Assembly: GCA_016872595.1 (NCBI GenBank)
Contig: VGZJ01000004.1
Coordinates: 1 to 62,209, forward strand
DNA: 62,209 bases
Source: Planctomycetota bacterium
GTDB taxonomy: Bacteria; Planctomycetota; Planctomycetia; Gemmatales; Gemmataceae
Direction: 5' to 3'
In this document: positions 27,514 to 61,204 of the stretch, piece by piece
Position numbering within the stretch: the first letter of the stretch is position 1
Layout: each line of letters opens with the position of its first letter
Notes under the pieces: model-generated
The model's input: only the letters and a program-made list of their open reading frames with translations
What the model was told of the DNA's origin: nothing
Database searches by the model: none
Made by a program: the position numbers and the translations under genes

Positions 27514-27525
27514 GGATACACTCCC

Positions 27526-27669
27526 GGGACCGCGGGCGTCCCGCCCGCTGCTTTGGCTTTAAGCTGGGACCGCGGGCGTCCCGCCCGCTGCTACGCACTT
27601 GTTGGAGCTTTGCGAAGAATCGCAGTGCGCCAACACAGAATCAGCAGCGGGCGGGACGCCCGCGGTCCC
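27526..27669. repeat. Family D repeat, two direct and one inverted copy
   Basis: The 27-bp unit beginning GGGACCGCGGGCGTCCC is present at 27526-27552 and 27566-27592 in direct orientation and at 27643-27669 inverted; all three are identical. Each unit has an internal palindrome. The cluster lies between the SGNH gene and the MBOAT gene and would form large alternative hairpins in their shared transcript. Confidence 0.9.
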
Positions 27670-27681
27670 GGGGCCGCGTCC

Positions 27682-49593: not shown

Positions 49594-49597
49594 TGGC

Positions 49598-49748
49598 GCA
49601 GCTGAACTCGGATCAAGGCAACAGGCAGAAGAGTTTTGACAGGATGAACACGATGAAAGACAGGATGAAGAGCGCACGCAGTTCTTACTATCTCTTGTTC
49701 ATCCTGTCAAAACTCTTCTGCCTGTTGCCTTGATCCGAGTTCAGCTGC
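49598..49748. repeat. Family F inverted repeat, 53-bp perfect arms
   Basis: Bases 49598-49650 and 49696-49748 are perfect reverse complements (53 bp) separated by 45 nt. The left arm starts 5 bases after the epimerase stop codon, and the right arm ends 53 bases before the ligase start. The arms contain AGAGTTTTGACAGGATGA, shared with 136-170 and 61031-61204, and less GC than any neighbouring gene. The perfect match of such long arms suggests a recent origin or gene conversion. Confidence 0.95.
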
Positions 49749-49801
49749 CCCGAAGTCCGCGCCATCCGCGGGCCAATCTTGATAAGTGAGAAAGGGCACG
49801 G

Positions 49802-52827: not shown

Positions 52828-55374
52828 TCAATCCCCGATCACGTCCTCGAACTTGAACACCGCGACGCGCTTGTTGTTCTCGTTCGCCGGGTCGAGCGTC
52901 ATCCCGCCGATGTAGATGGTCCGCTTGCTCCCGGTCGCGGTGGGCGTCGTAACGACAAGGGGCGAACACATGATCGCGTGTTCGGGGCGACCCACCCACG
53001 TGAACCCCGGCAACTGGCTCTGCCACGCGACCGCCCCGGTCTGCGGGTTCAGGCACACCACCGTGCCCTCTTGCGACACCGCGTACACCGCGACCGGGAA
53101 CCCGCCGCTCTGCGCCACCGCGGGGCAACTGAGCACCGCGCCGCCGATGCCGATCTGCCAGCGCAGCTTGCCGGTCTTGCGGTCCAGCGCGTACACGCTC
53201 CCGTCGCGGCACCCGACGTAGGCGCTGAACGCGTCGACGGCGATCCCGGTGTGAACGGCCTTCGGCAGCGGGTAGCGCCAGTCTTCTTTGCCGGTGGTGG
53301 CGTCGAGGCAGAACACGGCCCCGGCCGGTTCCTTCTCGCGCGCCGCGCCCTCTTCGTCGTACTTGAACACGTCCGCGCCCATGTTCCCGGTGCCGGCCGC
53401 GTACAGCACCTTGGTCCCGACGACCGTGGGCGCGCCGAACACGCGCAGTTTCAGGTCGGTGCGCCACTTCTCCTTACCGGTGGTGGCGTCGAGCGCCACC
53501 GCGACGTAGTTGAACAGGCCGCTCCCGGCGAACACGGTGCCGTTGGCGACCGCCGGCGGCGCGTCGATGTGAACGTCGTCCTTGCCGCTGCCGGTGTACT
53601 GCCACACCTGCTTGCCAGTCGCGGACTCAGCACAAATGAGGCCGTCGTCGCCCGCGGGGAAGTACACGCGGTCGCCCACCACCGCCGGCGTGCCTTCCGT
53701 GTGGCCGTCCTTCGTCTTGAACGGCGGGTCCCACGCGAGCGCGCCGTTGGCGAGGTTCACGCAGAACAACCGGCACCCTTTGTTCTCGTGCATACCTTCG
53801 CCGCAGTACACTTTGCCCCCGGCGATGGTGGGCGTGCAGTACACGGCCTTGAGGAAGTTCGGCGGCTCGCCGGCCGCAACCAGTTGCCAGTCGAGCTTCC
53901 CGGTGTGCCGGTTCATGCAGAACAGGCTGCCGTTGTTGCCGCCGATGTCCGCGCCGAAGACGAGGCGGTCGCCGTCGAGCGCGAGGTTCGACATGACGCG
54001 CCCGAACTTCTTCTCGTCGTCGTCGAAGGCGACGACGGCGACCGGGTCGCCCACCAGCCGCGGGCCGAAGTTGGCTTCGGCGTCGCCGGACTTTGCTTCG
54101 CCCACGCCGGGGCCGGCCACGCGCCCGCTGGCAAGCAGCACCGTACACAGCCCGCACAGCGCCAGCGCGCCCAGCCCCACCGATTCGCCGGACACGCTCA
54201 GGCGCACGGGGTGTTGGAGCCCGTCCGCAGGGTCATCGATCCGCTTCGTGACCGCGCGGTACGCGGCGTACGCGGTCGCGGTCAGGAGCGCGAGGCCGAT
54301 GAAGGTGAACTCGCGCATCGGCAGTTCGACCGTGGAACTCCAGTTGGCGAAGACCGCGGTGAGTGCGGTCGCGACCGCCGCGAACGCGGTCAGGCCGAGG
54401 AGCGTGTACAGTTCCCCCTTGCCCGGCGTGCGGGTGACGGTCGCGTCCTCGGCCGCGAGCCGCCGGTACCGCCGCCCGGCCCACATCAGCCCCACGAGCG
54501 CGATCGCCGTGAGGTAGATCGTGAATCGCGTCGGCGACAGCCACGGCGACACCGCCAGCCAGTGTTGCCGGTACGTGAACACCACCCAGTACAAGAGCGC
54601 GAGCGTGCTGTTGAGGCTGGCGACGACAAGGAACGCCCGCCACCGCTTCATACCCACGGCCATGCGCGCGAACACGCCGGGGAACAGCGCCGCGATAATC
54701 GCCAGCGGCCCCGCCAGCACGAACGAGGGGATGACGGCGAACAGCGCCGGCGAGCGGGGGGCGTCAGCCCCCTGTGCTCCCATGCCCTCATCGCACTTCT
54801 TCTTGGCGACGACAGGGCCGTAACCGGGCTTCTCCTTCTCGTCGGGTTCGGGCGGCTTGGCCTTCTTCGCCAGCGCGTCCGCGACCGTCTTCACCATCTC
54901 GGCGCTGGTGCCCTTGAACGTGCGGCGCAGGAACGGCTCGCCGTGGAGGAACGCCCAGCGGACCGTCTTGCCGTCGGCGTCGATCTGCCCGTAGGCCGAG
55001 AACCACGAGCCTTCGACGAACAGCTTCGCGTTGTAAAGTTTGCCCTGCTTGCGCAGGAAGAAAACGACTTCCCGCGTCGTGTCGAGGCGCTCGAACGCGG
55101 TCTTGGTGTCGCCGGCCTTCTTGCCCTCGTCGTCGCCAGTCATGTTCATCGGCACGCGGTCGAAGGGCGGCTCGCCCTTCAGCTTCTTCACCACGGTGAA
55201 GACAGCCGTGGGCCGGTCCTTGTTGTCGGGGTCGAGCTTTTCGGCCCTCGCCACGAAGATAACTTGGTCGCTCTCCAGCACCTCCGCAAGGGGCGTGAGT
55301 TTGGTGATGGCCGCCGGCGCGGGCACGGCGACCATTAGGAGAGCGAGAAGGGCGAGCGCGGAGAAGTGATTCAT
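52828..55374 (-). CDS. PQQ-like beta-propeller protein with membrane-spanning middle
   Basis: The 848-residue product starts at the ATG at 55374 (MNHFSALALLALLMVAVPAPA signal). Three parts follow: an N-terminal soluble domain (about 25-195, LESDQVIFVARAEKLD, TREVVFFLRKQGKLYNAK); a membrane region with six or seven helices (about 225-440); and a C-terminal PQQ-type eight-blade propeller (about 460-848). Propeller repeats include GSLFCMNRHTGKLDWQLVA, VALDATTGKEKWRT, FCLDATTGKEDWRY and YALDRKTGKLRWQIG. No proof of PQQ binding exists. It may link envelope sensing or protein assembly to the membrane. Its start diverges from nothing; mutL ends 72 bases upstream on the same strand. Confidence 0.83.
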   Translation of the reverse strand: MNHFSALALLALLMVAVPAPAAITKLTPLAEVLESDQVIFVARAEKLDPDNKDRPTAVFTVVKKLKGEPPFDRVPMNMTGDDEGKKAGDTKTAFERLDTTREVVFFLRKQGKLYNAKLFVEGSWFSAYGQIDADGKTVRWAFLHGEPFLRRTFKGTSAEMVKTVADALAKKAKPPEPDEKEKPGYGPVVAKKKCDEGMGAQGADAPRSPALFAVIPSFVLAGPLAIIAALFPGVFARMAVGMKRWRAFLVVASLNSTLALLYWVVFTYRQHWLAVSPWLSPTRFTIYLTAIALVGLMWAGRRYRRLAAEDATVTRTPGKGELYTLLGLTAFAAVATALTAVFANWSSTVELPMREFTFIGLALLTATAYAAYRAVTKRIDDPADGLQHPVRLSVSGESVGLGALALCGLCTVLLASGRVAGPGVGEAKSGDAEANFGPRLVGDPVAVVAFDDDEKKFGRVMSNLALDGDRLVFGADIGGNNGSLFCMNRHTGKLDWQLVAAGEPPNFLKAVYCTPTIAGGKVYCGEGMHENKGCRLFCVNLANGALAWDPPFKTKDGHTEGTPAVVGDRVYFPAGDDGLICAESATGKQVWQYTGSGKDDVHIDAPPAVANGTVFAGSGLFNYVAVALDATTGKEKWRTDLKLRVFGAPTVVGTKVLYAAGTGNMGADVFKYDEEGAAREKEPAGAVFCLDATTGKEDWRYPLPKAVHTGIAVDAFSAYVGCRDGSVYALDRKTGKLRWQIGIGGAVLSCPAVAQSGGFPVAVYAVSQEGTVVCLNPQTGAVAWQSQLPGFTWVGRPEHAIMCSPLVVTTPTATGSKRTIYIGGMTLDPANENNKRVAVFKFEDVIGD

Positions 55375-55446
55375 GGCGAGTGAGTCCTTGAGGCGGGTAG
55401 CACTCACATGATAGGTTCGCCACAAGCGGCAGGCGAGCGCGCCCCG

Positions 55447-57477
55447 TCACGTTCGCCGGAACTGCTTGTCGAGTTCGGCGCGGCTGAACAGCAGCGACGT
55501 GGGTCGCCCGTGCGGGCAGTGATGACTGTCCTCGGCCATCTCGCGCAGGTGCAGCAGGTACGCCACTTCATCCGTCGAGAGCTTGTCGCCGGCCTTCACC
55601 GCGGCCTTGCACGCCATCGTCGCCATCAGCAGGTGCAGCAGCGCCTCCTTCGCCGGCGGGCGCTCCTGCGTGACGAGGTGATCGACGACCGCGCGCAGGA
55701 TGACGTGCGGCGGCTTTCGCCCCAGCAGCGTCGGGTAGCTGGAGAGCAGCACGGTGTTGCCGCCGAAGTCGGAGACGTCGAGACCCAACTCGCGCAGCGC
55801 GTCGGCCGATTCGAGCACGAGCGCCGCCTGTTCCGCCGGCAGGTCGATGGGTTCCGGGATCAGCAGCCGCTGCACCTCGAGCCGCCCCTCGCGCACCCGC
55901 CGCCGCAGTTGCTCGAACAGGATGCGCTCGTGCAGCGCGTGCTGGTCGATGACCAACATGCCGTCGGGCGTTTCGAGCACAAGGTACGAGTCGTGGAGTT
56001 GAATGGCCGTGTGCGGCGCGAGCTTCGGAAGGGCGCTCAGCGCCGGGGCACCCGCAGTGGGCGCTTCAGTAGAAGAACGTCCCCCCCCCGGCCCCCCCTC
56101 CTTGACGGGAGGGGGGGAGAAAGGCGCGGGCGCATCGGAAGCGTCGGCTGCGCGTTCACCTACCCCCCCCGGCCCCCCCTCCCTGAAGGGGGGGGGGGAG
56201 AAAGAGATCGGCGCTTCGGAAAGGTCAACGGCGCGCGAACCAGCTTTCTCCCCCCTCCCTGAAGGGAGGGGGGCCGGGGGGGTAGGTTCCTCGCGCGTGA
56301 CGCGCGCCGGTTCGCGCCAGAGCGGGTCGGCGGTCTCGCCGCGCTCCCACGGCGCGAGCGTGCGCTCGGCCAACTCGCGCCGCGGTGAGGCGAACAGACC
56401 CGCGCCCTCCTCGGTTTTTGACTCCTTGACCTCCGCGCCGGGCCCGCCGATCTCTTCCCCCTGTGGCGCGGTCAGGTGCGGGATCAGGTTCTCGCGCAAC
56501 AGCCGGTGCTTCACGGTGCCGCGGACGAGCGAGTACACCAGCGAGTTCTCTTGGAACCGAACCTCGGACTTGGTCGGGTGGACGTTCACGTCGATCTTGT
56601 CGGGCGGGACCGTCAGGAACAGGAACCCGATCGCGTAGCGCCCGCTCATTAGCAGGCCGCGATACGACTCTTGAAGGGCGTGCGCGAGTGAGCGGTCGCG
56701 GAACCAGCGGCCGTTCACGAACAGGTACTGCAGCTTGGCGTTGCCGCGGTCGCACTTGGGGTCGGCGATGAAGCCCCGCAGCCGCAGCGGGCCGTCGCCG
56801 GAATCGAGTTCGTACAACGCGTCGCGCACCTCGCCGGTGAAGAACAGCGCGACGCGGTCGAGCAACCCGGCGCTCGCGGGGATGTCGTACACGAGCCGCC
56901 CGTTGTGCCGCAGCGTGAGGTGCAACGTCGGGTGCGCGAGCGCGAGGCGCGTGACCGTTTCGCACACGTGGCCGAGTTCGGTGGCGACGCTCTTCAGGAA
57001 CTTCTTGCGGACGGGAACGTTGTAGAAGAGGTGCCGCACCTCGATGCGCGTGCCGGGCGCGCCGTTCCACGGCTTCACCGGCGCGAGCGCGCCGCCGTCG
57101 CACTTGATTTCACAGCCGCTCGCGGCGTCGCGGGTGCGCGACTGGAGCGCGACTTGTCCGACGCCGGCAATGCTGGAGAGCGCTTCGCCGCGAAAGCCCA
57201 TCGTGCCGATGCGGAACAAGTCGTCCGCGGTTTCGAGCTTGCTGGTGGCGTGCTGCGCGAAGGCGAGCGCGAGGTCGTCCGGGGCGATGCCGCAGCCGTC
57301 GTCGACGACGCGAATGAGTTCGGTGCCGCCCGCGTCGAGGTCGATGTCGATGCGCGTGGCCCCGGCGTCGACGGAGTTCTCGAGCAACTCCTTCACGACG
57401 GACGCGGGGCGCTCGATGACCTCGCCGGCGGCGATCTTGGCGATCACGTCCGGCGGCAGTTGGCGGATGCGCGGCAT
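55447..57477 (-). CDS. mutL: DNA mismatch repair protein MutL
   Basis: This 676-residue protein has a GHKL ATPase domain (1-330): IAAGEVIERPASVVKELLEN, DDGCGI, TMGFRGEALSSI and NVHPTKSEVRF. The C-terminal dimerisation/endonuclease domain (about 480-676) has the metal motif DQHALHERILFE, ACKAAVKAGDKLS and CPHGRPTSLLF, so this MutL should be a latent nicking endonuclease. The linker (about 340-475) is encoded partly by three copies of repeat H (56080-56122, 56161-56203 and, inverted, 56244-56287), giving FSPPPFREGGPGGVG-like segments. mutS is not in the window. It forms a minus-strand group with a response regulator gene. Confidence 0.96.
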   Translation of the reverse strand: MPRIRQLPPDVIAKIAAGEVIERPASVVKELLENSVDAGATRIDIDLDAGGTELIRVVDDGCGIAPDDLALAFAQHATSKLETADDLFRIGTMGFRGEALSSIAGVGQVALQSRTRDAASGCEIKCDGGALAPVKPWNGAPGTRIEVRHLFYNVPVRKKFLKSVATELGHVCETVTRLALAHPTLHLTLRHNGRLVYDIPASAGLLDRVALFFTGEVRDALYELDSGDGPLRLRGFIADPKCDRGNAKLQYLFVNGRWFRDRSLAHALQESYRGLLMSGRYAIGFLFLTVPPDKIDVNVHPTKSEVRFQENSLVYSLVRGTVKHRLLRENLIPHLTAPQGEEIGGPGAEVKESKTEEGAGLFASPRRELAERTLAPWERGETADPLWREPARVTREEPTPPAPLPSGRGEKAGSRAVDLSEAPISFSPPPFREGGPGGVGERAADASDAPAPFSPPPVKEGGPGGGRSSTEAPTAGAPALSALPKLAPHTAIQLHDSYLVLETPDGMLVIDQHALHERILFEQLRRRVREGRLEVQRLLIPEPIDLPAEQAALVLESADALRELGLDVSDFGGNTVLLSSYPTLLGRKPPHVILRAVVDHLVTQERPPAKEALLHLLMATMACKAAVKAGDKLSTDEVAYLLHLREMAEDSHHCPHGRPTSLLFSRAELDKQFRRT
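56080..56287. repeat. Three family H palindromic repeats inside the mutL linker
   Basis: Copies of about 42 bases at 56080-56122 and 56161-56203 are in one orientation, and a third at 56244-56287 is inverted. Each has a C-tract, GGCC, CCCTCC, a TTGACG or CTGAAG centre, GGGAGGG and AGAAA. The reading frame is kept through all three, although the two orientations encode different peptides (PPPFREGGPGG against PTPPAPLPSGRGEK). Confidence 0.9.
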
Positions 57478-57940: not shown

Positions 57941-58038
57941 GTCCGGCCCTCGTCGGTCAGCGTGTCCGTCCCGATCAGAATACCACCCGCGCGGCCCGCC
58001 CTCAAGGACCGTGCGCCGCGCTGTCGTTCGAAAGTATT

Positions 58039-58136
58039 AGGCACACTCCGTGTGCCGTCGCTACGCGGATCGGATGAGGTCCGCGTGATCGGTGTGCGCG
58101 ACCGAGTCGTTCAGCGACGGCACACGGAGTGTGCCT
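58039..58136. repeat. Family A inverted repeat, second copy
   Basis: Bases 58039-58062 and 58113-58136 are perfect inverted arms (24 bp) around a 50-nt spacer. The arm sequence is that of the 1208-1284 element, but the spacers are unrelated. It lies 13 bases downstream of the TPR gene's stop on its strand. Confidence 0.9.
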
Positions 58137-58148
58137 ACTACACTCCGG

Positions 58149-61030: not shown

Positions 61031-61204
61031 AGTTTTGACAGGATCACAGGATCGGACAGGATCAAGACTTGTACTCCGCTCTGGAGCCGGCCTCACTGAG
61101 GCCGGCGCTACACGTCAGGCTCAGCTTCCGGGGTCAAGGACCCCGGCTACAGAACCCATCAACACTCTCTTCATCTCTGTTCATCCTGTGATCCTGTCGA
61201 AACT
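61031..61204. repeat. Nested repeats: family F arms around family C and another hairpin
   Basis: The outer arms 61031-61052 and 61183-61204 are inverted (22 bp, one mismatch) and belong to family F. Inside are a family C palindrome at 61086-61106 (GCCGGCCTCA-C-TGAGGCCGGC) and a hairpin at 61128-61146 (CCGGGGTC-AAG-GACCCCGG). The cluster accounts for most of the 355-base gap between the HEAT/TPR gene and the Hsp70 gene. Confidence 0.85.

Follow-up and report, generated by a model that had tools for sequence, protein, structure and literature searches.

The palindromic repeats found within the mutL gene of this planctomycete are very probably copies of a genus-specific, dispersed element that has been inserted into mutL and into many other genes, and that is translated as part of the host proteins. 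The window analysed here, a stretch of 62,209 nucleotides, contains mutL on the minus strand at positions 55447-57477, as judged from the open reading frame, Pfam matches and sequence motifs. The gene encodes a protein of 676 aa, of the endonuclease type, with the Pfam domains HATPase_c_3, DNA_mis_repair (aa 213-326) and MutL_C (aa 493-633). The endonuclease motifs DQHALHERILFE, ACKAAVKAGD and CPHGRP were read directly and fall mostly in invariant alignment columns, and the catalytic motifs appear to be intact. The repeats encode aa 398-466, in an open frame, between the DNA_mis_repair and MutL_C domains. An AlphaFold2 model, built with an alignment of 20 MutL proteins, gave pLDDT values below 50 at aa 334-370 and 372-484, on which basis the repeat-bearing region is predicted to be a disordered linker, as the initial annotation had supposed. 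The insert most likely has no function in the protein.

Three palindromic repeats, in two orientations and in frame, had been described in this linker, and all three were recovered. Copies 1 and 2 lie on the plus strand at 56081-56123 and 56158-56205, respectively, and copy 3 on the minus strand at 56244-56288, where it reads AACCTACCCCCCCGGCCCCCCTCCCTTCAGGGAGGGGGGAGAAAG on the coding strand and encodes the peptide PTPPAPLPSGRGEK. The array is best described as one canonical inverted doublet with an additional half element, and not as three equivalent insertions. Copies 2 and 3, which are inverted relative to each other, show 81-85% complementarity over 33-36 nt and are separated by a linker of 38 nt (56206-56243); together they form a doublet of approximately 130 bp (56158-56288), with the architecture observed in 42 of the 62 genomic elements sampled. 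As single-stranded DNA the doublet has a fold energy of −54.7 kcal/mol, compared with a mean of −32.7 for shuffled sequences (z −8.5). Copy 2 holds a run of 11 G residues (56188-56198), at the place where most copies have GGGAGGGGGG. The extra half element, copy 1, is situated 81 bp from copy 2 and matches it at 77% over 81 nt. It may represent either a tandem duplication of copy 2 or a separate insertion; the 81 bp register is consistent with duplication, but the linker similarity (32) is no greater than may be seen between unrelated copies (95th percentile 40).

The view that the repeat is of a dispersed type was supported by searches of the organism's own genome (G000, a draft of 6.8 Mb in 590 contigs). 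A 22 nt core produced 87 forward and 92 reverse matches with at most three mismatches, while the reversed pattern produced none. The core is nearly palindromic, so that many sites are counted on both strands, and the number of half elements is estimated to be nearer 90-120. A blastn search with the MutL copy yielded 67 matches. When at most one mismatch was allowed and 41 genomes were scanned, the core was present in the organism's own genome and in 12 others of the genus (13 of 19), with one single match in the 22 others; the repeat family is genus-specific. The MutL relatives in named collections belong to Gemmata and the Gemmataceae, and the genus is therefore Gemmata or very near to it.

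The unit of the family is a G/C-rich hairpin of approximately 45 nt, mostly paired as an inverted doublet of approximately 130 bp: the 62 elements, found in 60 sampled stretches, comprised 42 doublets, 18 singles and 2 triples. Terminal inverted repeats, such as are expected of MITEs, were observed, with ends GAAGAACC...GGTTCTTC or AAAGGCAACC...GGTTGCCTTT, and the lengths of the homopolymer runs vary among copies. A search of Rfam returned nothing but sub-threshold miRNA matches, as expected of long hairpins.

The element is not specific to mutL: roughly half of the copies sampled are spread over many unrelated genes, and the remainder were found between genes or in places that could not be classified. 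In a codon-usage scan with 240 bp flanks, 32 of the 62 elements were situated wholly within one gene, with the same frame on both flanks and no stop. These coding calls derive from codon usage and not from a gene finder, and the proportion within genes is probably overestimated for G000, because the MutL copy served as the query when the sites were sampled. In the finished genome of a relative (G008), sampled with the core pattern, the scan placed 4 of 20 copies within genes when its model was trained on G008, and 1 of 20 when it was trained on G000. The boundary codons CCT-ACC-CCC were present in 25 of 27 scorable genes, even though 13 of the elements concerned could also be read in other open frames. 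The favoured frame gives the peptide PTPPxPLPxGRGE...GVG, a Pro/Gly-rich insert of the form EEPTPPAPLPEGRGE...SPLPSGRGAGGVGSS. All 20 scorable intragenic doublets (95-179 nt) had a length between the end motifs of 2 mod 3, as did 4 of the 12 others; this periodicity is weak evidence for a coding constraint, because it is partly inherent in the definition of the same frame on both sides and because the core spacings of 78, 81 and 84 in G008 occur in non-genic copies too.

Pfam domains were identified in 29 of 31 scanned hosts, including MutL; two had no match, and host L133 was left out. The insert lies within one domain match in Fpg (match 179-330, insert 246-280) and TilS (match 30-249, insert 160-205), and also in MnmE, GT87 and DcuC. 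NuoL, PutA, Lnt, CheA and Mfd are other hosts, and the DNA repair genes that carry the element are those for MutL, Fpg/MutM and Mfd. At approximately 2040-2130 of the NuoL locus (L154), two half elements lie on either side of a His/Asp-rich stretch that is similar to the loop native to NuoL in relatives, as if the two halves had been inserted separately around host sequence. Three DUF1553 (PSD1) proteins, the G000 paralogues L149 and L152 and L263 from G006, have the element at a homologous position.

Comparison with relatives revealed orthologous sites that are empty, filled or differently filled. The MutL linker carries palindromic inserts, of several families, in 11 of 18 congeners. The same family is present in G000 and G006, related variants in G001, G003, G004, G005, G007 and G016, and a GGCGAGCGGGGG family in G009, G013 and G015. 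No inserts were found in the linkers of G002 (which has one stray 12 nt motif), G008, G010, G011, G012, G014 and G017, or in those read in 12 genomes from other genera. G008, G010 and G012 are repeat-rich genomes, yet their mutL genes are free of the repeat. Among other hosts, empty sites were observed for Fpg (G001 and G004), TilS (G001), UPF0261 (G004 and G006) and NagB-PIG-L (G006), and sites holding the same family for TilS, Fpg and Lnt (G006) and UPF0261 (G001). Another palindromic type, EEPLPPTPSPKKGGGE, occupies the site in NuoL and Mfd of G001 and in NagB-PIG-L of G004, and a shared site in an ABC protein likewise holds a different type. In G004 the same loops hold other short, palindromic-looking peptides, namely SPRAGEGG...PSPARGEG in an aldehyde dehydrogenase and EPRPQGSGLGLPRPRGRG in MnmE (L191 and L194).

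These comparisons bear on whether the linker peptides might instead be protein segments under selection, as spacers of a certain length or as docking motifs, with the DNA palindromes a by-product. Several congeners do have inserts at almost the same place in the linker, with similar P/G-rich peptides. However, the peptide is missing from 7 of the 18 congeners and from every other genus examined, the site is filled by families of unrelated sequence, and the same peptide is found in dozens of unrelated proteins. The initial annotation had reasoned that conservation of the peptide on different DNA would mean selection on protein; wherever a similar peptide is present in MutL, the DNA beneath it is that of a palindromic repeat. 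Selection for the peptide is thus extremely unlikely, and the data argue for dispersed-repeat insertions tolerated in a flexible linker, as had been suggested.

It had also been proposed that slippage in the C/G runs could switch mismatch repair off and on, which would make the array a contingency locus that toggles the C-terminal endonuclease domain of MutL and gives rise to reversible mutators. Such a switch is mechanically possible, to judge from the reading frame. Homopolymers of 7 or more bases occur nine times in the window, and seven of these runs (9, 7, 7, 8, 7, 11 and 7) are situated within the 202 bp from 56081 to 56282; any one-base slip in them would end MutL at 417-479 aa, ahead of MutL_C. 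Differences in run length between family copies also fit the idea. The long runs and the truncation thus stand, but the switch itself found no support: every MutL orthologue that bears elements keeps its frame, and the set examined, with one genome per species, contained no out-of-frame allele. Moreover, the runs are part of the element in other, unrelated hosts as well (NuoL, PutA and TilS), so that no MutL-specific reason for them is needed, and the longest appears to have arisen by an A-to-G change within GGGAGGGGGGG. A role as a switch is accordingly considered very unlikely.

Under the preferred reading, that of a dispersed element, mutL would be one of many genes into which copies inserted, and in-frame insertions in flexible loops and linkers would survive selection as Pro/Gly-rich inserts; permissive sites would have been re-occupied, or overwritten by gene conversion, independently in sister species. 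Linker sequences between doublet halves are informative in this regard. The linker of the MutL doublet has a best score of 49 within its own genome, compared with 19 at the same site in G006 and a background mean of 20, while that of the G006 MutL doublet scores 98 within its own genome. Linkers in Lnt and UPF0261 behave in the same way, and these comparisons indicate that the elements at sites common to sister species (mutL, Lnt and UPF0261) are not orthologous. Several G006 doublet linkers (L067, L195, L261 and L269) contain a nested extra hairpin, CTCGCTGCGCTCG ... CGAGCGCAGCGAG, that was not seen in the linkers of other species.

There is an appreciable chance, a little short of even, that each shared site reflects one ancestral insertion followed by gene conversion within each genome, and not a series of insertions at that site. 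The TilS junction is identical in G000 and G006 (ERQ-PTPP...GVG-CLLLRPLL), PutA is occupied at one place in three species, DUF1553 and ALDH are also co-occupied in sister species, and for 52 of the 60 linkers the nearest neighbour comes from the same genome. Conversion within one family does not, however, explain the other types found at NuoL, Mfd, NagB-PIG-L and the ABC protein, and for at least some sites the presence of different types at one place favours re-colonisation. It is tentatively proposed, as a possibility on the doubtful side, that permissive sites of conserved Gemmata proteins, the MutL linker foremost, have been repeatedly re-colonised by several unrelated palindromic families, by a route involving neither a RAYT nor target-site duplication, and with in-frame retention through selection at the protein level.

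As to the means of dispersal, neither a transposition event nor a polymorphism between strains was observed among genomes that represent one per species. The target-site duplications typical of MITEs were not apparent: direct repeats of 2-10 bp were detected at 2 of 36 sites, and both were of 2 bp. Matches to Y1_Tnp (PF01797) numbered 5 in the organism's own genome and 22 in six of the seven relatives searched. Of these 27 loci, 2 had a core-like match within approximately 1.5 kb, neither of them a clear flanking pair. The seventh relative, the finished genome G008, has 75 core matches and no Y1_Tnp match. A cluster of cores in G002 (1,398-1,412 kb) was considered as a source locus and rejected, as it proved to be an ordinary gene region with scattered copies and no informative enzyme.

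Other palindromic families are represented in the window. Half of a second family (GGCGAGCGGGGGGCGTCAGCCCCC) is located on the plus strand at 54749-54772, in frame in the neighbouring gene (52828-55425). This family has 115 matches in the genome with at most two mismatches (control, 0) and is also present in the MutL linkers of G009, G013 and G015; unlike the first repeat family, it also turned up in a second taxonomic family of the order (G026). The motif GTAGGCACACTCCGTGTGCCGTC forms an inverted pair at 1207-1285 and again at 58034-58141, and apparently represents a further dispersed palindromic family. Three occurrences of GGGACCGCGGGCGTCCCGCCCGCTGCT (two direct and one inverted), with perfect arms of 27-30 nt, lie at 27523-27672, and inverted repeats with AGTTTTGACAGGAT in common were observed at 49595-49751 and 61031-61204, the 59 nt arms of the first pair being 97% complementary.

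Protein-coding palindromes are thereby placed at high frequency in free-living planctomycetes, within conserved enzymes and repair enzymes. The empty, filled and differently filled orthologous sites offer dozens of natural experiments on the gain of protein segments, and annotators and structural biologists should be aware that mobile DNA is the likely origin of Pro/Gly-rich inserts in Gemmata proteins. No relevant paper on Gemmata palindromes was found in the open library, so comparison was made with systems known from other bacteria. REPINs are inverted doublets with a spacer that form a long hairpin, are extragenic and are tied to RAYTs (Bertels and Rainey 2011, PMC3116915). The Gemmata element resembles them in its inverted doublet of short palindromes (42 of 62), in a copy number of the order of 100 and in the similarity of copies within a genome, but many of its copies lie within genes and it has no RAYT neighbour. 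Intragenic GTAG/CGTC REP dimers are translated in frame, many of them in replication and repair genes, and in two species of Xanthomonas they occupy about the same place in recB (Di Nocera et al. 2013, PMC3733652); the main text of that paper mentions neither mutL nor Gemmata. The Gemmata element shares with these REPs the inverted dimer of short palindromes and the repair-gene hosts, and the recB site recalls the sites shared among Gemmata congeners. Its inserts are of about 15-70 aa (mostly 35-48), compared with mostly 20-30 for the REPs, and its outer ends vary (GGTAGG, GTTAGG or GTGGG) and lack the GTAG/CGTC end. Since neither the GTAG tag nor a RAYT was found, the element is not to be filed as a GTAG REP or REPIN.

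The closest functional parallel appears, by analogy, to be the Rickettsia palindromic elements (RPEs), palindromes of approximately 100-150 bp that belong to several families per genome and lie in frame in many conserved genes, whose products tolerate them (PMC10969869, PMC2229807). Like these and their Wolbachia counterparts, the Gemmata element is a dispersed palindrome of approximately 100-150 bp, present in many copies, that lies in frame in unrelated conserved genes and encodes a common peptide. The two differ, as far as RPEs can be compared by description, in that the Gemmata element occurs in another phylum, is rich in G/C homopolymers and consists of shorter hairpins paired as an inverted doublet. 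An RPE-bearing Gmk has, moreover, been shown to be translated and active (PMC2229807), whereas the Gemmata element is known from sequence alone. Taken together, these comparisons identify the family as a new, planctomycete example of a protein-coding palindromic element.
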